From Marchantia polymorpha subsp. ruderalis (lineage: Eukaryota > Streptophyta > Marchantiopsida > Marchantiales > Marchantiaceae): a DNA stretch of 64,000 nucleotides. Of the stretch, positions 6,752 to 54,928 are shown one piece after another. The notes under the pieces are model-generated. The model worked only from the letters and a program-made list of their open reading frames with translations, had not been told where the DNA came from and made no database searches. The position numbers and the translations under genes were made by a program. Position 1 is the stretch's first letter. Every line of letters starts with the position of its first letter. The stretch covers positions 28,150,501-28,214,500 of the forward strand of contig AP031352.1 of NCBI GenBank assembly GCA_037833965.1, written 5' to 3'.

Positions 6752-6773
6752 AAAAGAAGTTGTCGGCTTCTTA

Positions 6774-6979: not shown

Positions 6980-7014
<35 letters not shown>

Positions 7015-15268: not shown

Positions 15269-15278
15269 TGAAATCTTG

Positions 15279-20940: not shown

Positions 20941-23900
20941 CTAATATGTCAAGATGTCAGAACGAAGACCTTTTACCATGCACTCCTCGCACACCCATGC
21001 ATGCCCACCTAATTCTAGTCTCACGTATTTCACCTGATACAACTTGAAGATGGCCGAATACCTATCTTGAAGTTGAGGCGTCAGAGTTTGCTGAATCCTC
21101 AACCATGCTTCTCTCAGCTCCTTACTTTCCTCACCTTTTAGAAATGCCCTACGATCACGATCACTAAGACCATCTAATTCAGCAATATCAGATTTGAAGT
21201 CTTCCCAGTCCGGAATCGCTTGGCCTAACCCAAGAGTCACATCTAATCCAGCCTTTGCAGCATAATACATGACTTTGAATGAGATTTTAATGGTTTTCTC
21301 AATCCAGCCGCAATTCTTCCCATTCAAGCGTACCTTCAAACCTTCTTGATCTTTCACCCTATGAAATCCAGTCACCGACTCACACATCAAGTGTAATCGA
21401 ACGGTTGTTCCCACATGCAGAACTGCGCTCATCCTATAGAAAATGCCAACATCGTCCGTAACGTAAGGTCGCTTGGGAAATCTGGCCTGCCGAAGAGATT
21501 GAGAATACCCATTGATGTTGTCCACTTCAGACATGAAGGCACTCATTGTTGGCTGCAGTTTTCGTTGTAAAAAGAGTATCTGTTCCATCTTAATATCCAA
21601 TCTCTGCACAATGTTCTCCACTGATCTCAACCTCTCATCCAAACCATGAAACATTTGTAGTATCAGGTCTATCTTGTTCTCAAGTCCGGTTGAACAAGTT
21701 TCTACACTTGTGCTGGCTTGACTTATGGATGAAGTTGGATTGGAGTCTTTCATATGAGGAAGATTTGAATCGCTAACCATGTTCTCATTTGCAGGGTAAG
21801 AATGATTCAAATCATTCTTCACGTTGTTTGAAGCTCGCCGCAATGACTCCAATTGTTGCATTTGCTTATCTCGAATCTCATTCACAATTGCTTCCACATC
21901 GCTCTCCCACAGCAAGTCCCTAGCTCTTTCGAAGACAACATGTGTCGTGTGACTTTCAATCGGGGGCCAACAGTGCTCATAGTTGAACAACTCTTCCTCC
22001 TTCTCCAAGTGTGACTTATCCAACGGAATATCCTCAAGTTTGTCTTTGATGCTACGAATGAATTCAGATTTGAGCTCCTCAATCAGAATCGCCCCTCTTA
22101 GATGACACGGAATCAGCATCTCCACGCAAAGTGTTTGGATCACACCAAGCACTAAAGCCACCCCGGGACAGCCTTTGGGTGATGCGCAAAATGATATCAA
22201 CTCCTGGACGACATGCTTCATTAGGTATTTCAGAGCCCCCTCCCGTGACTTATGCTTCGAGCATAACATCAGAACATCCACATATTTGTGGGAACTTCCT
22301 TGCTGGACATAAATCTGATGTCCATCAAGAAAAAATCCAAGATAGTGTCGAGAGCAGGTCACAGTCTCCTTGGAAACATGCATCTCCGATATCAATTTGC
22401 GTCTCATGAACATCTACAATGATATAAAACTTGGTAAATATTGAGTTATTCATTCCAAAAATTGAATTGAATTAACATATGAAACGAGAATATTCCATTC
22501 ATTTTACACAAATTACAATCAGAACTTGACGAATTCAATCTTCTCATAGTATATATGCAATCATGATATAACCTCACCTGGAAGCATGGAAAGAAAGCAG
22601 CGGTCAGCAACATTGTTCTTCCATCTTGACATTGAATCCGGATGCCCACAAACCGTGAAGTCTCATCCCTAGTTCTCCAAGCCATCGACTCCACGTGCGC
22701 CCCTTCTTGATGCTTCTGTTCTTCCATGCTTGCATGCTCAGGTATGAAGGAGGGAATGAAATACTGAGAAGTATCTTCAAGCTTGAAACACAAATCCAAA
22801 TTGATAAGGATGTTTTCAACCACCTCTTTGTCCACACCTTTTTGTCTGCGTGATTGCTTTCGCAGAAACTCTTCTATCAACCGAGCAAAGACACCCTCAC
22901 TCACAAATCCGTCCTTGCTTGTGTATGAGTTCCATGACATGGTTTTGTCTGAAGACCCGGACTCTTGAGGTTGAAAGTCTTGACCTAGAGCTACTAGCTC
23001 ACCCAATAATACATTGGTGAGCCAGTTTGGATTTATGATGATATAATCAAGGTTATGAATATAGATGATGGATCCTATGTCATTCAAATAGGATAATATG
23101 GAAGTCATTAAACTTGAATGATCAATAGTAAGAGCAGAAGATGATGGAATAAACTGAGCCAAGCTGGGGTCACAAAAATCTTGAAACTCTTGGGATGACC
23201 AAAGTGGGCAACATTTGTTCTCTTCGGTGTTTGTAATCAAGAGGGACGAGAGTTGAGAGCACAATAGGGGAACTCGTGGAGATTTTTCACTCAACAACTT
23301 TGTGAAGATCTCAAAGATGTGATTTTTGAGAGGAATAACTTGCTTCTTCTTCCTAGCATCTACATGAAAACACTCTTTAATAGGGTGGAGATCCACAAAT
23401 TTTGCAAATCTTTTGGTGAGCTTGTTCACTATTGAGTTAGCCCATGTCAAAGAGCTGGATTTGGCTTTATCCTTGTGTGATATCACAACAAGAACTTGTG
23501 GACGATTATGCCCAGTAATCCTAGAGCTGGATGTGATGAAACTCAACCATTCTTCCAACTCTGTTAGAAAACAGGATTCTGATTTGTCTAAAGATGTTTT
23601 TTCACAGAAGTGGCTATACACAAATAGAAAAATACAAAAGTTGCTGGTTTGAGGGAAAAGTACACTTTGAAGGGTACGAAAGACTCTTTGTCCTGCAAGA
23701 TCCCAGATTGAAATTTGACCTTTGTCATTATTTTGCAAAAACTCCACCTCAATGCCTCTCGTTCTCCACAACTCGTCCCATTTGTTACCAACCCAACTTT
23801 TGCCTCGAACTATCCTCATCAAGGTTTGACGCAATTTGGTCTTGCCTGAAAAATTGAACAAACAGAATCATACCAAATACAATTTGTTACTTGAGATGTT

Positions 23901-26074
23901 TTTACGTATCAAATAATATCATAGTTTTTAATCATATGAGTAAAATATTCTTGACAAATTATTATAATTCATAGTATGATGAGTTGCTTCATTGGAAGTG
24001 GTAATACGATTTAAATGACACAAAAATAAAAAAATATAAATATTATGTCTAAAATTACCGGAAATCTTGAACAAAACAAGATATTTATAATTCAAATTTA
24101 TTTGGATATAATTTTTCTTTTTCTTCCCACTTGAAAACACAATTTTACACAAGTGCATATACATCTAGAGATAAACAATAAACTTGACGCAAATAAGTTT
24201 AAATTTTGAGTAGTAAAAACGTTAGATTGCTAATTTGCACACATGGAGAATAAAACTGAGAACTGACGGAGCAACTTACCTGCTCTAGGAGAGCCGCATA
24301 AAAAGAGTCGACCAGCATTTGCATCTCCAAATGTTAATTTGGCTTCCCTGAAGACGGCCATGTAGAAGGCCCGCTTCTTGTTCTGCTTTAGTGCCTCTTG
24401 AATCTGCGACGCCTTTCCGTCATTTTGGGATGACGTGCGTGAGACATCTATTTCCTCCAGAGTCAAGTTCACTTGGAGTAGCCCCATCATCTCCCTAAAC
24501 ATCTGATCGTCGAGTATACAACTAGATAATTCCAAGTGAGTGAGACTTGTGTTCTCTCGCAAGCTCGAAAGCAGATCCTTCCATATTTCCTTCCAAACAT
24601 CCTGGCTTTTAACATCTAATACCAGTCTCTTCAGGACGGAAGTTTCTCCAGTTTGGCCATTCATCGGGAGGATACTTTCCGGTCTATCTTGGTTGCTACC
24701 CGAAGTGGGACAATGCATCCCCGTTAGACTGAAAGATGTCAGAGATTTGATATCCCCACGCAGTACCCTACCTAATAGGTTTAATGATAACATCCAGTCA
24801 CGGTCATTAGGCGATGCAAAGCTGAGTTCAAGCTCCAATTTGGGGTCCTTGATATCGGAGCTGGCAGCACACACAAGAGCTTCTATTGACTGCCAGTGAT
24901 CTCTCACAGAATCGAAATGAAAATTTACAAGAAGATTCGTTGCTATAGCATTGTCACGTATGACTTCGCCGAGCTGGTGCCATTCCTCACGACTCATCCG
25001 CGAGGTATCCAACATCACTTTCAATGATGGGTTGGAAGTAAGAAGCTCCCTTAAACAGCCTCCGAGTTTATGCAAATTCCTCAGCCAAAGACTTTCAATG
25101 GATCGGTTGCCATCATCTCCAGCGAAAGCTTTCAGCAACAAGGCCGCTCCCCAGTCCACACTCTCTAATCCCAAACCTTTCAGAGAGGAGCTCCGGATCA
25201 AAGCCTGGGACAGGATTCCAACGGTCTCCTCCTCCATGGCGTCTATAAAGCCTAAATGCAACCATTCTAATCGAGTAGCACTGTTGATAATGTCAGCCAC
25301 ATGCTTCACCGCACTCGAGTCCTTGCACGCGTCCGCTATTGTTAAAGACTTGAGGTTAGATTCAGAATTTCCTCGCAGTCCTGAGGCGAGATTCAAGAAA
25401 CATCTGGCACTCAATCTGTTGTACATTATTCTCAAATCTGCTACGCCAGAGGAATTCAGAAGTTGCCCCAGCTGTGAACACAAGTTCTCCACTTCCGCAT
25501 CTGAATTCCATTTCAACATATTTCCGATAGTATACTCGGTGCTATATCTGAATCCTCTCAAAACTATTTCCCACTCGCTAGCGGTCAACCTCGATATATT
25601 TCCACCACAAATTTTCCTTACATTCAGATGCTGAAGGGTGTTGCAATTGCCGATTGCCTCCAGCACTCGAAGGCGCACTTTGCTTCGCCACCCTCTGATC
25701 TCTCGAAGATCAGATGCACGCTTCGGAAAGAAATCCCGAAACTCTGGCACCCATAATCCGGGAAACGACTTTATAGGCTCGCCATTTCCTTCCAAACGCC
25801 GTAGAAGGTGCTGGACAGCGGAAGGAAACTCCGGTTCCTCGTCCGCAGAGTCCATTCCCTGGAAAGCGGAGGAAAGCTCCGGTTCCTCGTCCGCAGAGTC
25901 ATATCCCAGACGCCGTAGAGGGTCCATAGGGTCGATTCTCACCACCATAGAGACAAGTTCAGAACCGTGACTCTCAATAGACGGTCCTGCACTTTCGATT
26001 CTCTCCTCCATTCTCACACAGTAAGACACGTTTGCTGCTTGGCATGCGCGGGTGAAATGTAACCGAGACTTCAA
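20941..26074 (-). CDS. LRR-ROC-COR GTPase (plant ROCO, TORNADO1-like), copy 1
   Basis: Three exons: 26074-24280, 23845-22578 and 22413-20941, giving 1511 residues. Introns have AG|GTAAGT...CAG and CAG|GTGAGG...TAG borders; intron 1 (434 bp) is phase 1 and intron 2 (164 bp) phase 0. Residues 1-100 hold two acidic DSADEEPE repeats. About 130-570 are ribonuclease-inhibitor-like LRRs. The ROC GTPase starts with the P-loop GSPRAGKT (about 594-601), split by intron 1. DLAGQ (about 647) is G3 and SHKDK (about 721) is G4. COR follows to about 1020. Exon 3 carries a coiled coil (about 1267-1309) and a C-terminal domain with [14 protein letters not shown] and VCEEC, as I remember from TORNADO1. The likely role is a GTP-regulated scaffold; the pathway is unknown. 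A start at 26011 (MEERIESAG) is as plausible as 26074. Confidence 0.87.
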
Positions 26075-27270
26075 GAGTCCCTCTCCTCGATCCGCAAGCC
26101 CCGCTCTCCCGAATAAAACTTTACTTCCTGTCCCGTCGCAGTGTCACATCTTGTGTGAATGCTGGAGGAGGTCACTCTGCATGAGTAGCAACACAGAGAT
26201 TAATTGAACTCTGCATTGAATCAGATCAAAATCAATCACCACAAACGCAAGAACATTGTGGAAAGTGGATGCAGGAGTTAACTGGAACTCAATACATGAC
26301 CCTACCAACTATCTGAAACAAATTAAACTCAAAGAACCAAGATTCCGGTTTCACAAAAAATCAGATAGCGTGTGCATCTGTGAGGAACGCAAACCTACTG
26401 TGAACTCGAAAAGAGAGAAGCTTTTGATATATATTGGTGATCGAACTGGGTATACAACCTGATAGCTTTGCAGATGCTAAGTCACTCTGCATGTGCCAAT
26501 TCTCCCCTTCGCCACACTGCCTTTGAATGGAACGAATTATTGCAAACTCATCGTTGGACAGTCCGTTGGATAAACTGGGGACCAAACTGGGTGTACAAGC
26601 TGATAGCTCTGCATATGAATCTTAAATCCAAAAGACTGTTTTGTAGCAACAATGGTGCGATGTGGACGCAGAATTCCAAAGAATGCATGGAAGCGCAGAT
26701 TTCTCAGATGTGAAGTACTTTGAGTGGCGTAAAACTGCATGTACAATTGGAGAATGCGAATTTAGCTGTATCAAGACCTCGGAAGACAGACTCTACTATG
26801 GGTAGGGCGTGGAAAAAACATGCAGCGTCATTCAATCAGATCTTCTTATTGAAGCGCGTGAGTGGTCGAGGTAACGACAACATGAGAAAACAACAAGCTA
26901 CTTCCTCTATACTCGGTGTGATTGGAAATTGGTCTAAGAAGGTGGGTATAGATCTTGACTTTGTTGTGCAAGCGAAAAGGAAACGTGGGCCAATGCATCA
27001 GTGTGCTGATACACTCGATGTCTTCACGCTGACAACGGAGATTCCAAAGTTCGTTTTCATAGAATCATTTTCCTGGAAACTTTGATCTTGCAAGCAAGTG
27101 GATGTATTCTGACAAATGAGAGGCACATGCGTAGTCAGCTCGGCGGACAAAGCCTGTTGTGCTTTTTTCGTGTTTTGAAAATCGGTACAGTAGGCTATCG
27201 TAACTCGTAGGGTCGAAACAAAATTATCAACTTTTTGGGAATTTTCTAAGCATAATGTCGAATTGAGAAT
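26075..27270. promoter_or_regulatory. Upstream region of ROCO copy 1, with unit-conserved open frames
   Basis: Probable 5' UTR and promoter of copy 1; no clear TATA box was fixed. It contains plus-strand open frames conserved in all units, the longest 26720-27085 (121 codons; copies at 39696-40061 and 52350-52706). The differences between copies are nearly all amino-acid changing and the frame shows no known domain, so I do not call it a gene. An internal imperfect repeat links about 26437-26475 and 26575-26620. Confidence 0.4.
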
Positions 27271-28760
27271 TGAGAACGGAGAATAAGAGTATTCGAGGTT
27301 ATCAACTGGTGGTTTGTTTTTCTTCTAGCTCAACTCTCGAGATTCCATCGACTCTATTCAGTGTGCAAATAACCGTTCCACCTTGCAACGCACGGATCTC
27401 CGGGAATCGCTACGAGGAAAAGAAATCCAGGAATGAGTCAGAGTCCAGCACTGTTTTCGCTTCATGCACTAGTATTCAGAGCCGTGGTGACTCATATGCA
27501 ACTCTAGTTGTGGGTGCGCCACCTGATGGAAAGTATCTTGCACTCTCACTGATGACACAAGTACTCTCTTGCACTGACTCTTTGTGTAAGGTCTTCTATT
27601 TCATTCTTTATTTCTCATTGCTCTGCAAAAAATGTGATATTTAAAAATCTGTCCCATCTTAAACTAGAAATTATTTAGTACTGCATCTTACTCCCGGCAG
27701 GTATTAACTTACACCGGTTCATTGTCCACTGAAGAAAGTGAAGATGCTAGGCTGGACACTTTTGATCTTTTTTTGGGACCTTAGTTGTTGAAGAGTACAA
27801 TGCCTCGACTGCAAAGTCCATCAGCATCATGCCACCCCCTTCTCTGTCTTTAGAGCCAACCCTGTCATCTGTTGAATATTTCAGCTCTGAATGTTCTTTC
27901 TTGCTTGGGCTTCTTGACTGCACCTGGTGTTGACAAAAGAGACGTTGAACCTAGAATCAGGTATATACCCTTTCATGATTCCTCACTCTGTCCGCATGCA
28001 GTGACACCGACCTGATGAAAGTGAAGTTACGTAGTATGTTCTGATATTATGCAAGTCCTACGAAGTCACACCAGTTTTCAAGACCATGAGCGCCTTCGAG
28101 ACCGCTTTTCATGCCAGATTTCCACGGATCTACGAAGCAGGTGGGCCAGTTGGAGTACGGTTGATTATTACGGAGCTGCTAGGGTCCACGAAAAGGAAAT
28201 TCGAATAGGACGTGACAGCCGTCTTGATGCTTGCTCTCAGGAAGAATATTGTTCACCATGTGGGTATAAGTACAGCGCTCTGACATTGCTGATTTGATAG
28301 AATAATGTCTCTAAAGTGTCTGGTTGTTACATTGAGAAAGCGATTTTTCATACAGCACCCTGGAAATTCCATTGACTCTATTCAGCGTAGAAATAAGCGT
28401 TCCACCTTGCAACGCACGGATCTCCGGGAAGCGCTGCGAGGAAAAGAAATCCAGGAACGAGTAAGAGTCCAACACTCTTTTCGCTTCATGCAGTAGTATT
28501 CAGAGTTGTGGTGACTCATATGGAACTTTAGTTTAGTTGACGGTGCGCCACCTGCACAAGTACTTGGAGCTTGGCGTTGCCAAATCTGAACTTCATAAAC
28601 CGGGTGAAGATTATAGTGACAGTTTCCGATTAACCATGGACCGCAATTTCCAGACTGTTGCGGTGGCAGTTCGTTACCTAGACTATCTCTTTAGAAGAGA
28701 AGCCAAATAGTCTGTAAGGCCGAATTACAAGACGATGGCTTTCTTTCTGCTTGTCTAAAT
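27270..28760. repeat. Intergenic block of unit 1 with a ~200-bp internal repeat
   Basis: A segment of about 200 bp at 27330-27540 recurs at 28365-28555, and in units 2 and 3 at about 40300, 41340, 43805, 52930, 54105 and 56645. A GT-AG pair at 27586-27700 is conserved in unit 3, but the AG is lost in unit 2 and no reading frame continues across it. No gene model holds in all units. Probably decayed coding or transcribed sequence. Confidence 0.5.
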
Positions 28761-29900
28761 TATTTCCAAATTTTTTGATCAGAATTTGGACGTTGAAATT
28801 ATCCTTGGCCTAAAACCGAAACTCAAATGAACATTTAGCACTCTGCACTACGTTGCCACTGGCAACGTGCCTTGTCATTGCTAGCACGAAGTTCACCACA
28901 CAAGCTTCACTTAAAAACAGGCACCTGTCGGGATTCCAGGAAAGCCCATCAGACCCAACCCTGTCCTTAGAAGTGGATACTTCCCATGATCCAATGTCTA
29001 AGTGTCAATTAACATTGATTTGGATCAAATCTGTGTCGATTAACAGTTGCAGTAGGAAGAGTAAATGATGGTGGTGATGGGTGACTTACTCCAATCTACT
29101 GAAGTGAGCAATCCATCTAGAATGTTTCCTTGAAGTGCCAGATCTGTAGATCTGCACCACGTTGGCATGCACGCCATTTCGAAAGAATTTCCGAGCATCA
29201 GCGAGCAAAATATTCGTCAATGTATCCGATGAAAGACTTTCCCGCACATGTAAGATTTGATGGATTTCTACTACTGCAGCCTGGAGATCAATCCCTTCTG
29301 AGCTAACTCCCTTGCTCGTAGAATCTACGGCAGAAAACCACGCAGCAAGTCAATTTGCTGGAAGATTCTCTGTTACTGAACGTCCACACGGCAGTCCAAC
29401 AGTAGGCTCCACTTCGCCTCTGCATTTCGAAGCTTGTATGTATTAACATTTATCTTAGAATTGAAACTACAGACACTTGGCACTTGAAGAAGCTGGAACA
29501 AGAACAAGATGGACCTACTTCGAGACATTTGCATGTTCATTCAAATCAACTAGTACGCGCAACCGACTGCAGCAAACGGCACACGCTAGTACGCGCAAGG
29601 TCGAGGTGGTTCGTGAACTTCTATATGCATATCAATTTAGGAGAGTTTTTTCCTCGCGATGATCGAATGATGAGAGAAAAAATTAAGCCATGGATTATAT
29701 AGATTTCTCGTGGTACGCTCTGATGCACAAATTATCCCAAAATATCCTGTTCAGCGTCAGTGGAAGTGCGAAATGACAAGGTCACCACTACTGTCCCAAA
29801 GCATGATCATCGATAACGAGGGAGTCCAGGTGTCGAAGATGATAGAGAATCCCATCCATCTAGGGAAAGAGCTAGAGGGTTCTAGCGGAAATTGAGGGCG
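28760..29900 (-). pseudogene. Unidentified minus-strand gene fragment, unit 1
   Basis: Minus strand 29349-29086 is open for about 85 codons with protein-like composition (WFSAVDSTSKGVSSEGIDL ... ILLADARKFFRNGVHANVV) and no Met start. The unit 3 counterpart (about 57740-57520) keeps the first 55 or so residues and then changes frame. The plus strand at 29477-29702 is also open. I do not recognise the family. It could be an exon of the minus-strand gene at 31374-32813, or an unrelated gene scrap. Confidence 0.35.
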
Positions 29901-31237: not shown

Positions 31238-31373
31238 GTCCAAATCAAATTCCATATTCTTATAGCATCTCATAGAAGGAATTTTCGAACGCACAAGTTA
31301 AGTACAGTATGAGGTCAGTATATGGTTGCAAAGGAATGGACCCAGTTCACTTTTTGCCAAATATCCAATCTGA

Positions 31374-33675: not shown

Positions 33676-36600
33676 CTAACATGTCAAGATGCCAGAACGA
33701 AGACCTTTTACCATGCACTCCTCGCACACCCATGCATGCCCACCTAATTCTAGTCTCACGTATTTCACCTGATACAACTTGAAGATGGCCGAATACCTAT
33801 CTTGAAGCTGAGGCGTCAGAGTTTGCTGAATCCTCAACCATGCTTCTCTCAGCTCCTTACTTTCCCCACCATTTAGAAATGCCCTACGATCACGATCGCT
33901 AAGACCATCTAATTCAGCAATATCAGATTTGAAGTCTTCCCAGTCCGGAATCGCTTGGCCTAACCCAAGAGTCACATCTAGTCCAGCCTTTGCAGCATAA
34001 TACAGGACTTTGAATGAGATTTTAATGGTTTTCTCAATCCAGCCGCAATTCTTCCCATCCAAGCGTACCTTCAAACCTTCTTGATCTTTCACCCTATGAA
34101 ATCCAGTCACCGACTCACACATCAAGTGTAATCGAACGATTGTTCCCACATGCAGAACTGCGCTCATCCTATAGAAAATGCCAACATCGTCCGTAACGTA
34201 AGGTCGCTTGGGAAATCTTGCCTGCCGAAGAGATTGAGAATACCCATTGATGTTGTCCACTTCAGACATGAAGGCACTCATTGTTGGCTGCAGTTTTCGT
34301 TGTAAAAAGAGTATCTGTTCCATCTTAATATCCAATCTCTGCACAATGTTCTCCACTGATCTCAACCTCTCATCCAAACCATGAAACATTTGTAGTATCA
34401 GGTCTATCTTGTTCTCAAGTCCGGTTGAACAAGTTTCTACACTTGTGCTGGCTTGACTTATGGATGAAGTTGGATTGGAGTCTTTCATATGAGGAAGATT
34501 TGAATCGCTAACCATGTTCTCATTTGCAGGGTAAGAATGATTCAAATCATTCTTCACGTTGTTTGAAGCTCGCCGCAATGACTCCAATTGTTGCATTTGC
34601 TTATCTCGAATCTCATTCACAATCGCTTCCACATCGCTCTCCCACAGCAAGTCCCTAGCTCTTTCGAAGACAACATCTGTCGTGTGACTTTCAATCGGGG
34701 GCCAACAGTGCTCATAGTTGAACAACTCTTCCTCCTTCTCCAAGTGTGACTTATCCAACGGAATATCCTCAAGTTTGTCTTTGATGCTACGAATGAATTC
34801 AGATTTGAGCTCCTCAATCAGAATCGCCCCTCTTAGATGACACGGAATCAGCATCTCCACGCAAAGTGTTTGGATCACACCAAGCACTAAAGCCACCCCG
34901 GGACAGCCTTTGGGTGATGCGCAAAATGATATCAACTCCTGGACGACATGCTTCATTAGGTATTTCAGAGCCCCCTCCCGTGACTTATGCTTCGAGCATA
35001 ACATCAGAATATCCACGTATTTGTGGGAACTTCCTTGCTGGACATAAATCTGATGTCCATCAAGAAAAAATCCAAGATAGTGTCGAGAGCAGGTCACAGT
35101 CTCCTTGGAAACATGCATCTCCGATATCAATTTGCGTCTCATGAACATCTACAATGATATAAAACTTGGTAAATATTGAGGTATTCATTCCAAAAATTGA
35201 ATTGAATTAACATATGAAACGAGAATATTCCATTCATTTTACACAAATTACAATCAGAACTTGACGAATTCAATCTTCTCATAGTATATATGCAATCATG
35301 ATATAACCTCACCTGGAAGCATGGAAAGAAAGCAGCGGTCAGCAACATTGTTCTTCCATCTTGACATTGAATCCGGATGCCCACAAACCGTGAAGTCTCA
35401 TCCCTAGTTCTCCAAGCCATCGACTCCATGTGCGCCCCTTCTTGATGCTTCTTTTCTTCCATGCTTGCATGCTCAGGTATGAAGGAGGGAACGAAATACT
35501 GAGAAGTATCTTCGAGCTTGAAACACAAATCCAAATTGATAAGGATGTTTTCAACCACCTCTTTGTCCACACCTTTCTGTCTGCATGATTGCTTTCGCAG
35601 AAACTCTTCTATCAACCGAGCAAAGACACCCTCACTCACAAATCCGTCCTTGCTTGTGTATGAGTTCCGTGACATGGTTTTGTCTGAAGACCCGGACTCT
35701 TGAGGTTGAAAGTCTTGACCTAGAGCTACTAGCTCACCCAATAATACATTGGTGAGCCAGTTTGGATTTATGATGATATAATCAAGGTTATGAATATAGA
35801 TGATGGATCCTATGTCATTCAAATAGGATAATATGGAAGTCATTAAACTTGAATGATCAACAGTAAGAGCAGAAGATGATGGAATAAACTGAGCCAAGCT
35901 GGGGTCACAAAAATCTTGAAACTCTTGGGATGACCAAAGTGGGCAACATTTGTTCTCTTCGGTGTTTGTAATCAAGAGGGACGAGAGTTGAGAGCACAAT
36001 AGGGGAACTCGTGGAGATTTTTCACTCAACAACTTTGTGAAGATCTCAAAGATGTGATTTTTGAGAGGAATAACTTGCTTCTTCTTCCTAGCATCTACGT
36101 GAAAACACTCTTGAATAGGGTGGAGATCCACAAATTTTGCAAATCTTTTGGTGAGCTTGTTCACTATTGAGTTAGCCCATGTCAAAGAGCTGGATTTGGC
36201 TTTATCCTTGTGTGATATCACAACAAGAACTTGTGGACGATTATGCCCAGTAATCCTAGAGCTGGATGTGATGAAACTCAACCATTCTTCCAACTCTGTT
36301 AGAAAACAAGATTCTGATTTGTCTAAAGATGTTTTTTCACAAAAGTGGCTATACACAAATAGAAAAATACAAAAGTTGCTGGTTTGAGGGAAAAGTACAC
36401 TTTGAAGGGTACGAAAGACTCTTTGTCCTGCAAGATCCCAGATTGAAATTTGACCTTTGTCATTATTTTGCAAGAACTCCACCTCAATGCCTCTCGTTCT
36501 CCACAACTCGTCCCATTTGTTACCAAGCCAACTTTTGCCTTGAACTATCCTCATCAAGGTTTGACGCAATTTGGTCTTGCCTAGAAAATTGAACAAACAG

Positions 36601-38938
36601 AATCATAACAAATACAATTTGTTACTTGAGATGTTTTTACGTATCAAATGATATCATAGTTTTATATCATATGAGTAAAATATTCTTAACAAATTATTAT
36701 CATTCATTTATAGTTTGAAAAGTTGCCACAATGGAAGTGGATATACGATTTAAATGACCAAAAAATACACATTTGAAGACTATGTCTAAAATTACTGGGA
36801 ATCTTGAACAAAACAAGATATTTATAATTCAAATTTTATTTGGATATATTTTTTCGCTTTCTTCCCACTTGAAAACACAATTTTACACAATTGCATATAC
36901 ATCTAGAGATAAACAATAAAGTTGACGGCTATAAGTTTAATTTTTGAGAAGTAAAAACGTTAGATTGCTCATTTGGATACATTGAGAAAAAAACGGAGAA
37001 CTGACGGAGCAACTTACCTGCTCTAGGAGAGCCGCATAAAAAGAGTCGACCAGCTTTTGCATCTCCAAATGTTAATTTGGCTTCTCTGAAGACTGCCATG
37101 TAGACCGCCCGCTTCTTGTTTTGCTTTAGTGCCTCTTGAATCTGCGACGCCTTTCCGTCCGTTTGCAATGAGGTGTGTGAGTACGTTGGCCATGAGTAGT
37201 CTACATTTATTTCCTCCAGAGTCAAATTCACTTGGAGTAGCCCCATCAGGTCCCTAAACATCTCTTCGTCGAGTTTAGAACTAGATAATTTCAAGTGAGT
37301 GAGACTTGTGTTGTCTCGCAAGCACGAACGCAGGATCTTCCATACTCCCTTCAAAAGATCTTTGCCCTTAACATCTAATACCAGTCTCTTCAGGACGGAA
37401 GCTTCTCCAGTTTGGCCATTCTTCGGGAGTATACTTTCCAGTCTATCTTGGTCGCTACCCGAAGTGGTCCGATTCAACCACCTTAGACTGAAAGATTTCA
37501 GAGATTTGATATCCCCGCGCAGTACCCTACCTAATAGGTTTAATGATAACATGCAGTCGTGGTCATCCGACATTGCAAAATTGAGTTGAAGCTCCAATTT
37601 GGGGTCCTTGACATCGGAGCTGGCAGCACACACAAGAGCTTCTACTGACTCCCAGTACTTACTCACAGAATCGAAATCAAACGTTACAAGAAGATTCGTT
37701 GCTATAGCATTGTCACGTATGACTTCGCCGAGCTGGTGCCATTCCTCACGACTCATCCGCGAGTTATCCAACTCCAATTCCTTCAATGATGTGTTGGAAG
37801 TAAGAAGTTCCCTTAAACAGCCTCCGAGTTTACGCAGAAACTTTAGCCGAAGAGTTTCAATGGATCGGTTGCCATCGTCTCCAGCGAAAGCTTTCAGCGA
37901 CAAGGCCGCTCCCCAGTCCACCGTCTCTAATCCCAAACGTTTCAAAGAAGAGCTTTGGATCAAAGCCTGGGACAGGATTCCAACGGTCTCCTCCTCCATG
38001 GCGTCTATAATGCCTAAATGCAACCCTTCTAATCGAGTAGCACTGTTAATCATGTAAGCCACATGCTTCACCGCACTCGAGTCCTCGCACGCGTCCGATA
38101 GTGTTAAAGACTTGAGGTTAGATTCAGAATTTCCTCGCAGTCCTGAGGCGAGATTAGAGAAACATCTGGCATTCAATCTGTTGTACATTATTCTCAAATC
38201 TGCTACGCCAGAGGAATTCAGAAGTTGCCCCAGCTGTGAACACAAGTTCTCCACTTCCGCATCTGAATTCCATTTCAAAGAATGAACGAGTATACTCTCG
38301 GTGCTATATCTGAATCCTCTCAAAACTATTTCCCACTCGCTAGCGGTCAACCTCGATATATTTCCGCCACAAATTTCATTTACATTCAATTCCCCAAGGG
38401 TGTTGCAATTGCCGATTGCCTCCAGCACTCGAAGGCGCACTTTGCTTCGCCACCCTCTGATATTCGAGAGAGATGCACGCTTCGGAAAGAAATCCCGAAA
38501 CTCTGGCACCCATAATTCGGGAAACGACTCTATAGGCTCGCCATTTCCTTCCAGACGCCGTAGAAGGTCCTGGACAGCGGAAGGAAACTCCGGTTCCTCG
38601 TCCGAAGAGTCCATTTCCTGGAAAGTGGAGGAAAGCTCCGGTTCCTCGTCCGGAACTTCAAATCCCAGACGCCGTAGAAGGTCCTGGACAGCGGAACGAC
38701 ACTGCGGTTCCTCGTCCGCAGAGTCCATTCCCTGGACAGCGGAGGAAAGCTCCGGTTCCTCGTCCGCAGAGTCAAATCCCAGACGCCGTAGAAGGTCCAT
38801 AGGGTCGTTTCCCACCACCATAGTGACAAGTTCAGCCTGGATAGACGCTCCTGCACTTTCCATTCTCTCCTCCACTCTCACACAGTAAGACACGTTTGCT
38901 GCGGTGAAATGTAACCGAGACTTCAAGAGTCCCTTCAA
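33676..38938 (-). CDS. LRR-ROC-COR GTPase (plant ROCO, TORNADO1-like), copy 2
   Basis: Exons 38938-37018, 36580-35313 and 35148-33676; introns 437 and 164 bp, same phases as copy 1. The predicted protein is 1553 residues from the first Met; the Met at 38863 (MESAGASI), conserved with copy 3, is an alternative start. Four acidic DEEP repeats lie near the N-terminus, then LRRs, a split P-loop GSPRAGKT, DLAGQ, SHKDK, COR, coiled coil and VCEEC C-terminus. Over exons 2 and 3 it differs from copy 1 at only a few residues (about eight in the 490-residue exon 3). Over the LRR exon it is the most divergent of the three. No break is seen. The intact splice sites and motifs suggest it is functional. 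Confidence 0.87.
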
Positions 38939-39020
38939 GAGTCCCTCTCCTCGATCCGCAAGCCCGGCTCTCCCGAATAAAACTTTACTTCCCGTCCCGC
39001 TGCAGTGTCACATCTCTTGT

Positions 39021-39242
39021 GAATGCTGGAGGAGGTCACTCTGCATGAGTAGCAACACAAAGATTAATCTAAGCTGTGCACAGAATCAGAACAAGAGCAA
39101 TCACCAGGAAGGCAGGAAGATTGTGGAAAGTGAATGCTGGAGGAGGTCACTCTGCATGAGTAGCAACACAAAGATTAATCTAAGCTGTGCACAGAATCAA
39201 ATCAAGAGCAATCACCACAAAAGCAGTAAAATTGTAAAAAGT
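39021..39242. repeat. 111-bp tandem duplication upstream of ROCO copy 2
   Basis: Two copies (39021-39131 and 39132-39242), both starting GAATGCTGGAGGAGGTCACT. Units 1 and 3 have a single copy (about 26158 and 51787). It sits about 80-300 bases upstream of the first Met, so it could alter the promoter or 5' UTR of this copy. Confidence 0.8.
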
Positions 39243-41613: not shown

Positions 41614-42057
41614 TTAAAAAGAGTAGCGAAAGAGTCTGGAAAACCGAATTACAAGACGATGGCTTTCTTTCTGCTTGTCTAGTTGTCTCAATTTACGCAA
41701 AACTACCGCCCACTCGCTAGCCGTTAACCTCGATATATCTCCGCCAAAAATATCTTGTAAGCCTAGATATTCAAAGGTGTTGCACCTGCCGATTGCCTTC
41801 AGCACTCGAAGGCGCACTTGGTTTCGCCACCCTACGTTCGTCGAGAGCGATGCATGTTTCCGGAAAAATTCTCGAAATTCTTTCCGGATTAATGTGGGCA
41901 GCCACCGTGAACAGCCTTCCAGCTGCCGTAGAAGGTACTGGACAGCGGAAGGAAGCTCCGGCTCCTCGTCTCCGGAGTCCATTCTCCGTGTCGCAAGTTC
42001 AGCATCGTCAAGGACGATGGACGCACCTGCACGTTCGATTGTCTCTTCCCTTGTCAA
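41614..42057 (-). pseudogene. Truncated N-terminal LRR-ROCO relic, unit 2
   Basis: Encodes a relative of the ROCO N-terminus: TIERAGASI, one acidic repeat ([15 protein letters not shown]), then EFREFFRKHASLSTNVGW and [12 protein letters not shown]. After about 120 residues homology stops, where the LRR region should begin. It is clearly more diverged from copies 1-3 than they are from each other, so it marks an older, fourth member of the family. It lies between the two copies of the internal block. Confidence 0.8.
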
Positions 42058-42960: not shown

Positions 42961-44080
42961 TAAAAAAGTATCTTGCACTCTCAGTGATGACACAAGGACT
43001 CTCTTGCACTGACTCTTAGTGTAACCTCTTCTAGGAATCTCACATTTCATTTCTGATTTCTCATTGCTACACAAGTTGTAATATATCTAACATTTTGTCC
43101 CATCTTAAAGTAGAAATAATTTAGTACTACATCTCACTCCTGGCAAATGTTAAACTTACACCAGCTCACTCTTCACTCAAGAAAGTGAAAATGCTGGGCA
43201 AGACATTTTTTATTTTTTGTGTGTGACCTTAGTTGTTGAATAGTACAAGGCCTCCACTGCACAGTCCATCAGAATCATGTCATCGCATTTTTAGCTTTTT
43301 GAACACACATTTCAAGCAAACCCTGTCATCAGTTGAATATTTCAGCCCTGAATGTTCTTTCTTGCTTGGGCTTCTTGACTGCACCTAGTGTCGGCAAAAG
43401 AGACGTTGAACCTAGAATCAGGTATATACCCTTTCATGATTCCTCACTCTGTCCGCATGCAGTGACACCGACCTGGTGAAAGTGAAGTTACTTAGTATGT
43501 TCTGATATCATGCAAGTCACACCAGTTTTCAAGACCATGAGCGCCTTCGAGACCGCTTTTCAGGCCACATTTCCACGGATCTACGAAGCAGGTGGGCCGG
43601 TTGGAGTACGGTTGATTATTACGGAGCTGCTGGGGTCCACGCAAAGGAAATTCGAATCGGACATGACGTCTTGATGCTTGTTCTCAGGAAGAATATTGTT
43701 CACCATGTGGGTATAAGTACAGCGCTTTGACCGTGCTGAATTCGATAGAATAATGTCTCGAAAGTGTCTCGTTGTTACATTGAGAAAGCGGTTTTCCATA
43801 CAGCACCGGGAGATTCCATTGACTCTATTCGGTGTACAAATAAGCGTTCCACCTTGAAACGCACGGGTCTCGGGGAAGCGCTGCGAGGAAAAGAAATCGA
43901 CGAAAAGAAATCCAAGAACGAGTAAGAGTCCAACACTCTTGAGGTCCAAATCAAATTCCATATTCTTATAGCATCTCATAGAAGGAATTTTCGAAAGCAC
44001 AAGTTTTAGTACAGTATGAGGTCAGTATATGGTTGCAAAGGAATGGACCCAGTTCACTTTTTGCCAAATATCCAATCTGA
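42960..44080. repeat. Second copy of the internal block, unit 2
   Basis: Repeats about 40500-41560 with an offset of about 2470 bases. It ends at about 43931, where unit 2 jumps to sequence equivalent to 31237 of unit 1. A minus-strand frame (43581-44000) crosses this deletion junction and is therefore chimeric, not a gene. Confidence 0.6.
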
Positions 44081-45516
44081 TCATTGATGCAGTTCAGCTC
44101 CTTCACAGGAGTTCCATGAGACTTCAAAATTCACGTCCTCAGATTCATGTCCTCCGATTCTCTCAACTGACTTTCCTGAAGATCTCAAGTTACCACAAGG
44201 TAGACGTATTGAATGTTTCTGAAGCAAGTGAGTTGGCGGGTATATGGGAATATTCTGACTGAATAACATCATGACCTGCGTTATGTCGACTGGTACACTG
44301 TAAGAAGCTGTGGCAGAAGTACGGATGTCCCGCGAGCGCGTTGCTTCAAATAATCTTCCAACCATCCAAGTGGACTGGACTTACTGACGTTCAGTAAACT
44401 ATGGAACAGGCATACAGCGAATCAGCACATGCGTATGGAAGTTAAGAACAGGGTATAGGCATATGTCTGTTTATCTACAGTATTTTAAGCTCTGGATCAA
44501 ACCACTTCGGAGCTCACGCACATAAACTAGAAGAAACCGACATATGATGTCCATCGAACTACTCGAGTCTGCACGAAAAGGATTTAGTCCAAACCGAGAT
44601 GGGCATTCCACGCTTAAGAGAGGTCTAAGATTATAGTTTTGAAGTTCATCCAAGCCAAAGGGGCAAGATCCTTGCTACTGGTTGATCAATAGTTCGGTTT
44701 AGGCGACATTCGAAATAAATATCATACTAACAACCATCTGGGTTCACCTAGAGATAGTTTCACTTGGAAACCTTATTCCAAGATTTTGTCTTGCCACCTT
44801 ACATTCCAAGATAAATCTCACTTGCTGTCTCAAAGTATCTGGAGATATTTATACTGACATCCTCCCGTCTCCGTGCAAGATGGTTCTGGAATTGCTCATT
44901 TGAGTATTTTGAACAGCTATACTTGATTCTAGAGAAAACGTCTGGGCATGTCAAGTTTAAGGTTCTTATACTCCATCCAAGTTCTCTTTGGTACGTTACT
45001 CTGTCGTGTCTGTCAGGAGGCATGAGACTTGAACCTGAAGGCAGAAGATTCTCAAGTTCAAATCCAGTCGAATGATCTTCAATTCGAGGGTTATCCCAAC
45101 TGCCAAATCCAAATCGACGAGCTGAAAGACATACTTTTTCTACTCCACTACTTGATAGCCATTCAGAGCTTCCAGTCAGAATCTAGACCGCACCTAATCA
45201 CTTGTCAAACGAACTGCTCAGTGCCCAATAGGCTATTCCTGACACAAAGATCTTCAAATCTCGGAGTCCACATGACAAGAGAATTAAGCCGCCTAGTAGC
45301 AAGCCCACTTGCTTCACCTCCAGCATCAAGTTCTCTCATGTCAGCAGTGATCTCAGACTAACATGTCCTGGTTCCACTTGCTCTGTTGTAAAATATGACT
45401 TCCTGGGCTGACATGTCGTAGCTTCGTGCGAAAGTTTGCTGACTCTCGCTTCCTCTCAAAATCCCTCTAGAAGTGTAGGTTTGCAAATCTGGGCTCAGCC
45501 TACATAACTCTTTCAA
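44081..45516 (-). pseudogene. Unidentified minus-strand gene or relic, unit 2
   Basis: Counterpart of 31374-32813. The stretches 45023-44799 (74 codons from an internal Met) and 44365-44081 (94 codons) are nearly identical to unit 1. The donor at the first proposed intron is GTGAGA instead of GTAAGA, still acceptable. The most upstream stretch is no longer open. No family is recognised. Confidence 0.35.
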
Positions 45517-46378
45517 CTGCTTTTAAGTTCTCCGCCAGTGGAGAAAACTTCATGTCTTTTGTTAAAGATTTACGATCCTGTTTACTTGGCTGCCTGACTA
45601 CGCCTCTATCAAGGGTGGGAGTACTTTCTTAACGCACCACAGTTCATAAGAACAGTTCCATTCTGGACATACCTGGAGATTTTGGATTCCTTGCTGTAGC
45701 TGTTGTAAAATGCGTCCTCTGCATATCACATGGACTCTTTAACCTACGGGTGCGGAAACTCACCATCTCAACCTATCTTTTAAATTTTTCCATTGTTCCC
45801 CTTATTTTTCACGGGTTTATTTGCTCTGAATATCATGAAATGCGATGTACTTCTGAGAACAATCTTGTCCTCGTTGGCAAATCAATATCTGGCATTCAGA
45901 GTTAATTTGATAGCTAATTCATGAGTCCAAGTTTATACGTAGTTGGATTGGATTGTTTGATACTAAGTACATGTGGACTGCTAAGCTCAAAGATGCTCGT
46001 CCCAAAACGGGCGTTTTAAAGAGAAAGTCAATATCTTCAGATGAGTTGTTATCCAAAGTGCGTATGATTGCCATTCGTTTACAGGGATCTATGCGTTGGT
46101 CAGAAGTATTTTCTACCTTGGGTTTCTGAGAAGCGCGAAAGTCAATCCATCATGAGTGCAGACCCCTACTTCCCAAAATTCACCTTGTTATATTTTTCAG
46201 TCAAAAACAGAAACAGAACTTAGGGAGAGAGATGATGGAAAAAACCACGTCATAAACATGTGAGAACAGAAGAGCAGTTACAACTTTTACATCCTGTTCA
46301 TACGAGGGGTTCATATTGAATGAGGGTCTAAACATATGCTTGTCATATGTATAATGACATTCTAACCTCTTCAAATTC

Positions 46379-49300
46379 CTAATATGTCAAGATGCCAGAA
46401 CGAAGACCTTTTACCATGCACTCCTCGCACACCCATGCATGCCCACCTAATTCTAGTCTCACGTATTTCACCTGATACAACTTGAAGATGGCCGAATACC
46501 TATCTTGAAGCTGAGGGGTAAGAGTTTGCTGAATCCTCAACCATGCTTCTCTCAGCTCCTTACTGTCCCCACCTTTTAGAAATGCCCTACGATCATGATC
46601 GCTGAGACCATCTAATTCAACAATATCAGATTTGAAGTCTTCCCAGTCCGGAATCGCTTGGCCTAACCCAAGAGTCACATCTAGTCCAGCCTTTGCAGCA
46701 TAATACATGACTTTGAAAGAGATTTTAATAGTTTTTCCAATCCAGCCGCAATTCTCCCCATCCAAGCGTACCTTCAAACCTTCTTGATCTTGCACCCTAT
46801 GAAATCCAGTCACCGACTCACACATCAAGTGTAATCGAACTGTTATTCCTACATGCAGAACTGCGCTCATCCTACAGAAAATGCCAACATCGTCCGTAAC
46901 GTAAGGTCGCTTGGGAAATCTTGCCTGCCGAAGAGATTGAGAATACCCATTGATGTTGTCCACTTCAGACATGAAAGCACTCATTGTTGGCTGCAGTTTT
47001 CGTTGCAACAAGAGTATCTGTTCCATCTTAATATCCAATCTCTGCACAATGTTCTCCACTGATCTCAACCTCTCATCCAAACCATGAAACATTTGTAGTA
47101 TCTGGTCTATCTTGTTCTCAACTCCCGAACAAGTATCTACACTTGTGCTGGCCTGACTTATGAATGAAGTTGGATTGGAGTCTTTCATATGAGGAAGATT
47201 TGAATCACTAACCATGTTCTCATTTGCAAGGTAAATATGATCCAAATCATTCTTCACTTTGTTTGAAGCTTGCCTCAATGACTCCAATTGTTGCATTTGC
47301 TTATCTTGGATCTCATTCACAACCACTTCCACATCGCTCTCCCATAGCAAGTCCCTAGCTCTTTCAAAGACAACCTCTGTTGTGTGACCTTGAATCGGAG
47401 GCCAACCGTGCTCATAGTTGAACAACTCTTCCTCCTTTTCCAAGTGTGACTTATCCAACGGAATATCCTCAAGTTTGTCTTTGATGCTACAAATGAATTC
47501 AGATTTGAGCTCCTCAATCAGAATCGCCCCTCTTAGATGACATGGAATCAGCATCTCCACGCAAAGTGTTTGGATCACACCAAGCACTAACGCCACCCCG
47601 GGACAGCCTTTGGGTGATGCGCAAAATGATATCAACTCTTGGACGACATGCTTCACCAGGTATTTCAGAGCCCCCTCCCGTGACTTATGCTTCGAGCATA
47701 ACATCAAAACATCCACGTATTTGTGGGACGTTCCTTGCTGGACATAAATCTGATGTCCATCGAGGAAAAGTCCCAAATAGTGTCGAGAGCAGGTCACATT
47801 CTCCTTGGAAACATGCATCTCCGATATCAATTTGCGTCTCATGAACATCTACAATGATATAAAACTTGGTAAATAGTGAGTAATTCATTCCAAAAATTGA
47901 ATTGAATTTAACATATGAAACTAGATCAATCCATTCAGTTTACACAAATTACAATCAGAACTTAACGCATTCAATCTTCTCACAGTTTATATGAAATCAT
48001 GATTCAACCTCACCTGAAAGCATGGAAAGAAAGCAGCAGTCAGCGACATTGTTCTTCCATCTTGGCATAGAATTCGGATGCCCACAAACAGTGAAGTCTT
48101 GCTCCTAGTTCTCCAAGCCATCGACTCCACGTGCGCTCCTTGTTGATAGTTCTGTTCTTCCATGCTTGCATGCTCAGGTATGAAGGAGGGAATGAAATAC
48201 TGAGAAGTATCTTCGAGCTTGAAACACAAATCCAAATTGATAAGGATGTTTTCAAGCATCTCTCTGTCCACACCTTTCTGTTCGCGAGGTTGCTTTCGCA
48301 GAAACTCCTCTACCAACCGAGCAAAAACACTCTCACTCACAAATCCGTTCTTGCTTGTGTATGAGTTCGGTGACATGGTTTTGTCTGAAGACCCGGACTC
48401 TTGAGCTTGAAAGTCTTGACCTAGAGCTACTAGCTCACCCAATAATATATTGGTGAGCCAGTTTGGATTTATGATGATGTAATCAAGGTTGCGAATATAG
48501 ACGATGGACCCTACGTCATTCAAATAGGATAATATGGAATTCATTAAACTTGAATGATCAACAGTAAGAGCAGAAGATGATGGAATAAACTGAGCCAAGC
48601 TGGAGTCACAAAAGTTTTGAAACTCTTGGAATGACCAAAGAGGGCAACTTCTATTCTCTTTGGTGCTTGTAATCAAGAGGGAAGAGAGTTGAGTACACAA
48701 TTGGGGAACTCGTGGAGATTTTTCACTCAACAACTTCTTGAAGATCTCAAAAATGTGATTCTTGAGAGGAACAACTTGCTTTTTCTTCCTAGCATCTACA
48801 TGAAAACATTCTTGAATAGGGTGGAGATCCACAAATTTTGCAAATCTTTTGATGAGCTTGCTCACTATTGAGTTAGCCCATGTCAAAGAGCTAGATTTGG
48901 CTTTATCCTTGTGTGATATCACAACAAGAACTTGTGGACGATTATGTCCCGTAATCCTAGAGTTGGATGTGATGAAACTCAACCATTCTTCCAACTCTGT
49001 TAGAAAACAAGTTTCTGATTTGTCTAAAGATGTTTTTTCACAGAAGTGGCTGTACACAAATAGAAAAATACAAAAGTTGCTTGTTTGAGGGAAAAGTACA
49101 CTTTGAAGGGTACGAAAGACTCTTTGTCCTGCCAGATCCCAGATTGAAATTTGACCTTTGTCATTATTTTGCAAGAACTCCACCTCAATGCCTCTCGTTC
49201 TCCACAACTCGTCCCATTTGTTCCCAAGCCAACTTTTGCCTTGAACTATCCTCATCAAGGTTTGACGCAATTTGGTCTTGCCTGGAAAATTGAACAAACA

Positions 49301-51805
49301 GAATCATACCAAATACAATTTGTTACTTTAGATGTTTTTACGTATTAAATAATATCATAGTTTTTAATCATATGAGTAAAATATTCTTAACAAATTATTA
49401 GTATTCATTTATAGTATGATAACTTGCTACAGCGGAAGTGGTAGTACAATTTAAATGACAAAAAAATACAAATTTGAAGACTATGTCTAAAATTACTGGA
49501 AATCTTGAACAAGACACTATATTTATAATTCAATTTATTTGGATATAATTTTTCTCTTTCTTCCCACTTGAAACAGAACAAAACAGAATTTTTCACAATT
49601 GCATATACATCTAGAGATAAAGAATAAACTTGACGGATATAAGTTTAATTTTTGAGAAGTAAAAACGTTAGATTGCTAATTTGCACGCATGGAGAAAAAA
49701 ATTGAGAACTGACGGAGCAACTTACCTGCTCTAGGAGAGCCGCATAAAAAGAGTCGACCTGCTTTTGCATCTCCAAATGTTAATTTGGCTTCTCTTAAGA
49801 CTGCCATGTAGACGGCCCGCTTCTCGTTCTGCTTTAGTGACTCTTGAATCTGCGCCGCCTTTCCGTCCTTATGCCATGAGGTGTGTGAGACATCTATTTC
49901 CTCCATAGTCAAGTTGACTTGGAGTAGCCCCATCAGGTCCCTAAACATCTCTTCGTGGAGTTCAGAACTAGATAAATCCAAGTGAGTGAGACTTGTGTTC
50001 TCTCGCAAGCACGAAAGCAGATCCTTCCATATTCCCTTCCAAACATCGTCGCTTTTAACTGTTACTACCAGTCTCTTCAGGACGGAAGTTTCTCCACTTT
50101 GGCCAATCATCGGGAGGATACTTTCCGGTCTATCTTGGTTGCTACCCGAAGTGGGACAATGCATCCCCGTTAGACTGAAAGATGTCAGAGATTTGATATC
50201 CCCACGCAGTACCCTACCTAATAGGTTTAATGATAACATCCAGTGACGGTCATTCGGGACTCCAAAGCTGAGTTCAAGCTCCAATTTGGGGTCCTTGACA
50301 TCGGAGCTGGCACCACACACAAGAGCTTCTATTGACTGCCAGTAATCTCTCACAGAATCGAAATAAAACCTTACAAGAAGATTCGTTGCTATAGCATTGT
50401 CACGTATGACTTCGCCGAGCTGGTGCCATTCCTCACGACTCATCCGCGAGTCATCCAAGATCACTTTCAATGATGGGTTGGAAGTAAGAAGCTCCCTTAA
50501 ACAGCCTCCGAGTTTATGCAAATTCCTCAGCCAAAGACTTTCAATGGATCGGTTGCCATCATCTCCAGCGAAAGCTTTCAGCAACAAGGCCGCTCCCCAG
50601 TCGACCCTCTCTAATCCCAAACCTTTCAGAGAGGAGCTCCGGATCAAAGCCTGGGACAGGATTCCAACGGTCTCCTCCTCCATGGCGTCTATAAAGCCTA
50701 AATGCAACCATTCTAATCGAGTAGCACTGTTGATAATGTCAGCCACATGCTTCACCGCACTCGAGTCCTCGCACGCGCCCGATAGTGTTAAAGACTTGAG
50801 GTTAGATTCAGAATTTCCTCGCAGTCCTGAGGCGAGATTCAAGAAACATCTGGCACTCAATCTGTTGTACATTATTCTCAAATCTGCTACGCCAGAGGAA
50901 TTCAGAAGTTGCCCCAGCTGTGAACACAAGTTCTCCACTTCCGCATCTGAATTCCATTTCAAAGTATGAACGAGTATACTATCGGTGCTATACCTGAATC
51001 CTCTCAAAACTATTTCCCACTCGCTAGCGGTCAACCTCGATATATTTCCGCCACAAATTTCATTTACATTCAGATGCTGAAGGGTGTTGCAATTGCCGAT
51101 TGCCTCCAGCACTCGAAGGCGCACTTTGCTTCGCCACCCTCTGATATTCGAGAGAGATGCACGCTTCGGATAGAAATCCCGAAACTCTGGCACCCATAAT
51201 TCGGGAAACGACTCTATAGGCTCGTCATTTCCTTCCAGACGCCGTAGAAGGTCCTGGACAGCGGAAGGAAACTCCGGTTCCTCGTCCGATGAGTCCATTC
51301 CCTGGAAAGCGGAGGGAAGCTCCGGTTCCTCGTCCGAAGAGTCCATTCCCTGGAAAGCGGAGGAAAGCTCCGGTTCCTCGTCCGAAGAGTCCATTCCCTG
51401 GAAAGCGGAGGAAAGCTCCGGTTCCTCGTCCGCAAAGTCAAATCCCATACGCCGTAGAAGGTCCTGGAAAGCGGAACGACACTGCGGTTCCTCGTCCGCA
51501 GAGTCCATTCCCTGGACAGCGGAGGAAAGCTCCGGTTCCTCGTCCGCAGAGTCAAATCCCAGACGCCATATAGGGTCCATAGGGTCGATTCTCACCACCA
51601 TAGAGACAAGTCCAGCAGCGTGACTCTCGATAGACGCTCCTGCACTTTCCATTCTCTCCTCAACTCTCACACGGGAAGACACGTTTACTGCTTGGCATGC
51701 GCGGGTGAAATGTAACCGAGACTTCAAGAGTCCCTCTCCTCGATCCGCAACCCCGGCTCTCCCGAATAAAACTTTACTTCTCGTGTGAATGCTGGAGGAG
51801 GTCAC
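46379..51805 (-). CDS. LRR-ROC-COR GTPase (plant ROCO, TORNADO1-like), copy 3
   Basis: Exons 51805-49726, 49281-48014 and 47848-46379; introns 444 and 165 bp with the same phases as copies 1 and 2. It gives 1605 residues from the first Met; the Met at 51652 (MESAGASI) is an alternative. Six acidic DEEP repeats near the N-terminus make it the longest copy. The LRR exon is closest to copy 1, while ROC-COR and the C-terminus are more distant from copies 1 and 2 than those are from each other. Key motifs GSPRAGKT, DLAGQ, SHKDK and VCEEC are kept. No break is seen. Confidence 0.87.
51240..51575 (-). repeat. Coding minisatellite: 48-bp acidic repeats in ROCO copy 3
   Basis: Units of 48 bp encode 16 residues of the type [16 protein letters not shown]. 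Three near-identical units lie in a row at about 51281-51424, with three more degenerate ones to their right. Equivalent arrays lie at 25790-25920 (2 units, copy 1) and 38560-38800 (4 units, copy 2). All length changes are multiples of three, so the frame is kept. Confidence 0.85.
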
Positions 51806-54905: not shown

Positions 54906-54928
54906 AGGATTGTAGGCAGAGCAAAATA

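Follow-up and report, generated by a model that had tools for sequence, protein, structure and literature searches.

The window analyzed here, 64,000 nucleotides of Marchantia polymorpha subsp. ruderalis DNA at positions 28150501-28214500 of contig C3 (AP031352.1) in a 241-Mb genome of 9 contigs, holds three intact three-exon genes of the ROCO type, that is, genes in which leucine-rich repeats (LRRs) are followed by a ROC GTPase domain and a COR domain. Their coding span covers window positions 20941-51652 on the minus strand. Repeat analysis resolves the region into three tandem units whose gene parts start 12735 and 12700 bases apart, and each unit contributes a single gene on the minus strand whose three coding exons are in open frame, with GT-AG borders at both introns and identical intron phases. 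Copy A (1490 amino acids) comprises exon 1 at 24280-26011, which by gene model and LRR pattern encodes an acidic N terminus, the LRR region, and the first half of the P-loop; exon 2 at 22578-23845, a member of our exon-2 alignment, which encodes the remaining P-loop, ROC, and COR-A; and exon 3 at 20941-22413, which encodes the stop codon and a C-terminal region shared with the intronless relatives described below. The gene models of copy B (1528 amino acids; exons at 37018-38863, 35313-36580, and 33676-35148) and copy C (1554 amino acids; exons at 49726-51652, 48014-49281, and 46379-47848) divide the protein in the same way, with the LRR region and first P-loop half in exon 1, ROC and COR-A in exon 2 (found there by Pfam as well), and the C-terminal region in exon 3. 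Intron 1 (434-444 bases across the copies) is a phase 1 intron that cuts the P-loop, so that GSPRAG closes exon 1 and KT opens exon 2; intron 2 is 164-165 bases long. The joined P-loop GSPRAGKT, DLAGQ, and SHKD occur in all three copies, and we take the latter two to be G-motifs from what is generally held of the ROCO family. An earlier sequence-only reading of this DNA had proposed three complete three-exon genes with intact GTPase motifs in a 12.7-kb tandem array, and each of these statements is borne out; its start for the array (20941) holds too, but its end (51805) lies upstream of the start methionine of copy C (51652). The start methionines are inferred; upstream of this point relatives remain similar, but 21 of their 27 matches there are interrupted by stops (our own count).

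Domain profiles place these predicted proteins in the ROCO family. Exon 2 of copy C scored 25.5 bits against the Pfam Roc model (cut-off 27) and 32.2 bits against COR-A (cut-off 35.3), or 25.1 and 32.4 bits when trimmed, and exon 2 of copy B scored 24.9 and 29.1 bits, all below the curated cut-offs. Across the family the assignment is firmer: Roc (PF08477) and COR-A (PF16095) were matched by all 21 aligned members at E values of 0.01 or less, the best being 4.6e-7 and 4e-8, respectively, and the COR domain directly follows ROC. The exon-2 profile also matched, weakly, the PDB entry 4wnr, a "Leucine-rich-repeat protein" (E 0.001) that we take to be an archaeal Roco, and Rab GTPases (E 0.004-0.008). 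The repeats had to be reached by a different route. Exon 1 of neither copy B nor copy C gave any Pfam match, LRR models included, and among 24 exon-1 rows LRR_6 appeared weakly in 12 (best E 0.062). A profile built from those 24 rows, however, matched 21 sequences of known structure at E values of 0.01 or less, including the LRR chains of DRC5, NLRP1, and NLRP14; its top row carries a tubulin label that looks like a mislabel. Exon 1 contains 11 LxxLxL-type repeats spaced 25-34 residues apart, some of them placed by eye, and all detected LRRs lie in this exon, N-terminal of ROC. The prediction of a ROC-COR protein has thus been upheld by Pfam profiles, if below cut-off in copies B and C, and the LRR region emerges from the family profile and the repeat count but not from the Pfam LRR models. 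Exon 3 of copies B and C gave Pfam matches below cut-offs only (best COG3_N, 0.0036), and no NB-ARC domain was among the Pfam matches of exons 1-3 of these copies. By these profiles the three window genes are ROCO genes. Their nucleotide-binding motif is intact, and their ROC domains would presumably bind and hydrolyze GTP and act as switches.

The three window genes form a small part of a very large LRR-ROC-COR family, with at least 158 loci in the genome. A 27-nucleotide motif around the SHKD codons, allowing at most three mismatches, occurs at 174 genomic places and a second 27-nucleotide exon-2 motif, in COR, at 158, and the reversed-pattern controls returned 0 in both cases. A protein search, with a query that extends a few residues into both introns, scored 96 exon-2 loci from 320 first-look candidates at 69-100% identity; 21 of the 96 matches contain a stop and 75 do not, two of the latter being split into two matches (our own count). 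Merging listed exon-2 positions within 6 kb yields at least 158 loci on eight of the nine contigs (160 with 3-kb merging), a lower bound that draws on exon-2 places only; mixing exon-1, exon-2, and exon-3 places gave 163. None of the exon-2 positions listed falls on the small 5.6-Mb contig C1. At least 10 clusters of three or more hold at least 74 of these at least 158 loci, and the largest has at least 28, on contig C5 at 16.8-18.0 Mb. The sequence-only reading had singled out the three-gene cluster as unusual, an appraisal that proved too modest.

We modeled gene structure at six full-length genes outside the window, chosen for stop-free matches, together with the best exon-2 matches, and the fractions of open and disrupted copies given here apply to these modeled loci. 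Both introns were found by the same four motifs in 36/36 modeled rows, which correspond to 33/33 loci, as three rows repeat a locus already included. The stretch read is open at 21 of the 33 loci, and nine of these are open over the whole gene.

Within the window, the three copies bear the marks of exchange. Compared in 250-base windows, the gene sequences of copies A, B, and C differ by 0-13% in a mosaic of blocks. In exons 2 and 3, A and B share 97-100% identity, and C is the outlier at 90-98%; at 24474-25470, in the LRR exon, A is nearest to C (92-98%, versus 87-96% to B); and at 20011-20510, immediately past the 3' side of the genes, it is B and C that agree most closely, at 97.6-99.6%, with A at 90-91%. 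This mosaic, read from windowed identities, is the pattern expected from gene conversion or unequal crossing-over, and the switching of partners among the copies agrees with the recombining cluster proposed from the sequence. The same comparison bears on whether the three units are an artefact of assembly. Some distant arrays of the family do show identical-score, evenly spaced rows, which assemblers can miscount; the window units differ from one another by up to 13% in blocks, their spacers differ in content, and the family is present at more than 150 other places. Misassembly of the trio is therefore judged unlikely, and on this sequence comparison we would give it only the slightest chance.

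A functional indication comes from codon evolution. We analyzed 29 exon-1 rows from the 33 loci (the short rows L019, L022, L035, and L038 were dropped) and compared 44 exposed with 33 core LRR codons, using as the main set 13 non-overlapping pairs chosen on exon-2 synonymous divergence (dS). Over these pairs the ratio of nonsynonymous to synonymous substitution rates (dN/dS, or omega) is 1.73 at the exposed codons (bootstrap 1.35-2.22) and 0.46 in the LRR core; the remainder of exon 1 stands at 0.75, exon 2 at 0.34, and exon 3 at 0.42. Only 3 of 5000 random 44-codon sets from exon 1 reach the exposed value. Pairs were first picked on exon-1 dS, which may inflate exon-1 omega, but the repeats based on exon-2 dS and on intact rows gave the same outcome: the 181 of 325 pairs with an exon-2 dS of 0.02-0.5 yielded 1.53 (exposed), 0.34 (core), 0.74 (rest), 0.34 (exon 2), and 0.39 (exon 3), and 10 pairs from the 21 intact rows yielded 1.84 (1.47-2.33) at exposed codons, 0.33 in exon 2, and 0.40 in exon 3. 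Automatic placement of 14 repeat hits gave omega values of 1.50 and 1.82. The window copies alone, taken as three overlapping pairs, show 59.8 nonsynonymous differences over 308 sites versus 2.2 synonymous differences over 79 sites at the exposed codons, and 98 over 3005 versus 70 over 793 in exon 2. Maximum likelihood over 27 rows placed the exposed class at an omega of 2.5, on grids that ended at 2.5 in one run and at 3.2 in the other, and forcing that class to 1 rather than 2.5 was worse by 22.3 (F3X4), 26.8 (FQ), and 24.2 (F1X4) log units; the rest of exon 1 was best fitted by 0.8 under all three, and the LRR core by 0.4 under FQ and F1X4. Exposed LRR positions are under positive selection, and the ROC-COR exon, the C-terminal exon, and the LRR core are constrained. 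The likeness to plant immune-receptor clusters, noted in the sequence-only reading along with variable LRRs, has in this way become a measured pattern, by pairwise and likelihood methods alike, and that pattern, with omega above 1 at exposed positions and a constrained switch, is the one displayed by receptors in an arms race.

On these grounds we consider it probable, with moderate confidence, that the three genes belong to a recognition-receptor repertoire and are most likely intracellular immune sensors built on a ROC-COR switch instead of NB-ARC. In plants a selection pattern of this kind is known to result most often from the recognition of pathogens, and it is for this reason that the immune reading leads. 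In the scheme we envisage, the ribonuclease-inhibitor-type LRR would bind a partner that itself changes fast, for example a molecule from a pathogen. The conserved ROC-COR switch would respond with a change in its nucleotide state or dimerization and would pass the signal on by way of the conserved C-terminal region. As copies are duplicated in tandem, dispersed, and recombined with one another, the switch would stay the same and new LRR surfaces would arise on it.

Several observations weigh against this interpretation. The immune role is read from sequence, and the LRR positions come from the LxxLxL motif rather than from a structure, with exposed and core columns set partly by eye (the repeats at columns 162 and 192 were placed in this way). 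Under F3X4 the best fit for the LRR core is near 1.3, which we attribute to the abundance of leucine codons in this class. In a register-shift control dN peaks in register 0, but dN/dS just past the strand equals or exceeds the value of the strand itself (1.70 at +2 and 2.03 at +5), is still 1.62 at +7, and drops to 0.31-0.58 at +14 to +19; the fast zone is therefore the strand plus the following loop and not the strand alone. The same pattern would also be expected of allorecognition or genome conflict, and 12 of the 33 modeled loci look disrupted, whether through a stop, a frameshift, or exon truncation.

The last two points each lead to a rival explanation. A repertoire for allorecognition, gamete recognition, or genome conflict, whose LRRs would tell own-kind partners or selfish elements rather than pathogens, would produce identical selection and clustering, and we regard it as unlikely though deserving of serious thought; the lack of listed positions on contig C1 speaks against it if that contig is a sex chromosome, an identity that is a guess. 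The disrupted loci, the retroelements adjoining the array, and near-identical tandem units elsewhere in the genome would all fit a mostly non-functional family spread through duplication or mobile elements. Intact rows nonetheless keep an omega of 0.33-0.42 in exons 2 and 3 and above 1 at exposed LRR codons, and the introns are retained at 33/33 modeled loci, so the copies are not retrocopies; we accordingly hold a non-functional family to be a poor prospect, marginally less plausible than the developmental alternative considered next.

That alternative, in which the family consists of multiplied developmental signaling proteins like TORNADO1 (TRN1), their LRRs fitted to many endogenous partners, arises from comparison with the ROCO described from flowering plants. 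According to PMC4104024, ROCO genes in the plant kingdom are confined to flowering plants, where Tornado1 represents them, in agreement with the sequence-only reading's remark that Arabidopsis is known for this gene. The Marchantia genome contradicts the restriction to flowering plants, with both the large family and a set of separate intronless ROCO frames. As described there, TRN1 resembles the window genes in having N-terminal ribonuclease-inhibitor-type LRRs followed by ROC-COR and no kinase, and this shared domain order favors a developmental role, as does the C-terminal region that the family has in common with the intronless ROCO frames. TRN1 differs, so far as a comparison by description allows, in being described as the only plant ROCO and as developmental in role (PMC4104024), whereas the Marchantia family has more than 150 copies, diversifying LRRs, and an intron inside the P-loop. 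Positive selection on an exposed LRR surface would be unusual for developmental genes, as would so many copies with frequent disruption, and we think the developmental explanation improbable.

The intronless frames (L042-L047) are a separate set of ROCO frames in the genome. They are single open frames of 1106-1326 amino acids (L047, with 690, is a fragment), and the four that were scanned all matched Roc above cut-off, COR-A (one above cut-off), and LRR models. Profile matching against the family gave 99.7% for ROC-COR and a probability of 93% for the C-terminal region (exon 3; E 2.8e-7, 105 columns), and aligned identity is about 25%. In a midpoint-rooted tree with long branches, 32/32 family rows group together with a support of 100/100, apart from the intronless frames.

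Brown algae offer the nearest parallel in expansion. They have 9-47 ROCOs, more than other species (Chara has 10 and Gonium 19), and an immune role has been proposed, according to the accessible parts of PMC11378527; the at least 158 Marchantia loci exceed the highest ROCO count that we found in print, the 47 of the brown alga N. decipiens in the same source. The brown-algal LRR-ROCO genes are like the Marchantia family in their LRR-ROC-COR order, their expansion, their proposed immune role, and diversifying selection on the LRRs, but there each LRR is one separate, shuffled exon, genes have 7-55 exons, and most are dispersed (PMC11378527, in part). In the Marchantia family, by contrast, all LRRs lie in one exon, there are three coding exons, the genes form tandem arrays, and diversification is point-wise; the window genes accordingly do not show the one-LRR-per-exon layout of the shuffled brown-algal receptors.

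Plant intracellular immunity has been described mostly through NB-ARC receptors, and with these NLRs the Marchantia family shares clustering, an exposed LRR surface under diversifying selection, and a nucleotide-binding switch. It differs in that the switch is ROC-COR and the LRR region precedes it, and a separate NB-ARC set exists in the genome: all 76 candidates were scored and 66 matches obtained, several of them short, and as a match is not a gene the comparison with the ROCO count is rough. We tentatively suggest, at somewhat less than even chances, that Marchantia has, beside its NLRs and exceeding them in number, another system of intracellular immune receptors, with ROC-COR in place of NB-ARC and sensing by an LRR whose exposed surface is hypervariable, and that this system arose independently of the brown-algal ROCO repertoire. 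The accessible text of PMC11218826, on NLRs across plants, contains no occurrence of ROCO, and we found no report of a ROCO family of this kind in Marchantia, liverworts, mosses, or bryophytes among the top-ranked entries of a literature collection that excludes most subscription journals.

With its fast-changing binding surface, the family looks as if a second set of immune sensors stood beside the usual plant ones, and it would add a candidate receptor class to plant intracellular immunity in a transformable liverwort, a case parallel to that of the brown algae. ROC-COR proteins are kin of the Parkinson's protein LRRK2, and for them the family would offer a natural series in which sensors change and the switch stays fixed.

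Smaller features accompany the array. In copy C, exon 1 contains an in-frame minisatellite with 48-bp units (51253-51560) that encodes an acidic DSxDEEPE repeat, a related 48-bp array lies in exon 1 of copy B (38551-38798), and the number of units varies among copies A, B, and C. The spacers hold minus-strand pieces of the exon-1 5' end, partial gene copies found by tblastn upstream of copy B (41686-42045; 52% identity, 126 amino acids) and upstream of copy C (54533-54940; 45%, 142 amino acids). The spacers on the upstream side of the genes also carry five copies of a block of about 300 bases (at 27768, 40752, 43229, 53512, and 56049; span, 27768-56348), which adjoin exon-1 pieces and represent ancient duplicates of part of the 5' end of the gene.

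Elsewhere in the genome, the six full-length loci L048-L053 match the window to within 0-78 bases of both ends of the sequence compared. An early impression that dispersed copies share the gene and nothing beyond it therefore does not stand, since at six of the seven loci the compared stretch was too short to reveal where similarity ends. The seventh, the 9.9-kb single-gene locus L039, matches the window over 2728-7685 and again over 1401-1716, 316 bases whose counterpart in the window lies upstream of copies A and B. Four equal-score ROCO rows recur every 21,765 bases at 18.56-18.63 Mb of contig C9, with one TGA inside each match, and represent either a recent array or an assembly repeat; at 28.46 Mb of C2 two head-to-head ROCO copies (L040 and L041) are both rearranged. 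Contig C4 carries ten NB-ARC frames of 1022-1118 amino acids in tandem at 9.65-9.84 Mb. The LOB domain, which is plant-specific, gives 57 matches in this genome against none in 14 control genomes, and the MpACT qPCR primer pair of PMC4370483 finds exact sites that enclose the published amplicon length of 108 bp, both in keeping with a Marchantia genome. LOB-domain gene repeats appear as five identical-score rows at 14.8-15.3 Mb of C7 and as four rows with stops at 14.77-14.92 Mb of C2.

Rfam returned no match in the window. Two minus-strand frames of 325 and 411 amino acids without Pfam match occupy a G+C-rich stretch (0.55-0.59) at 16135-18396. On the minus strand, 2946-6660 holds the fragmented remains of an older Gypsy-type element with RVT_1, aspartyl protease, and zinc knuckle matches, flanked by inverted repeats. 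A Ty3/Gypsy-type retrotransposon covers 8307-15591 on the plus strand, with gag/pol frames at 11214-15268 (RVT_1, RNase H, and integrase); its direct repeats (8307-8606 and 15292-15591; 300 bases reported) are 100% identical, and it is therefore a young insertion beside the array.

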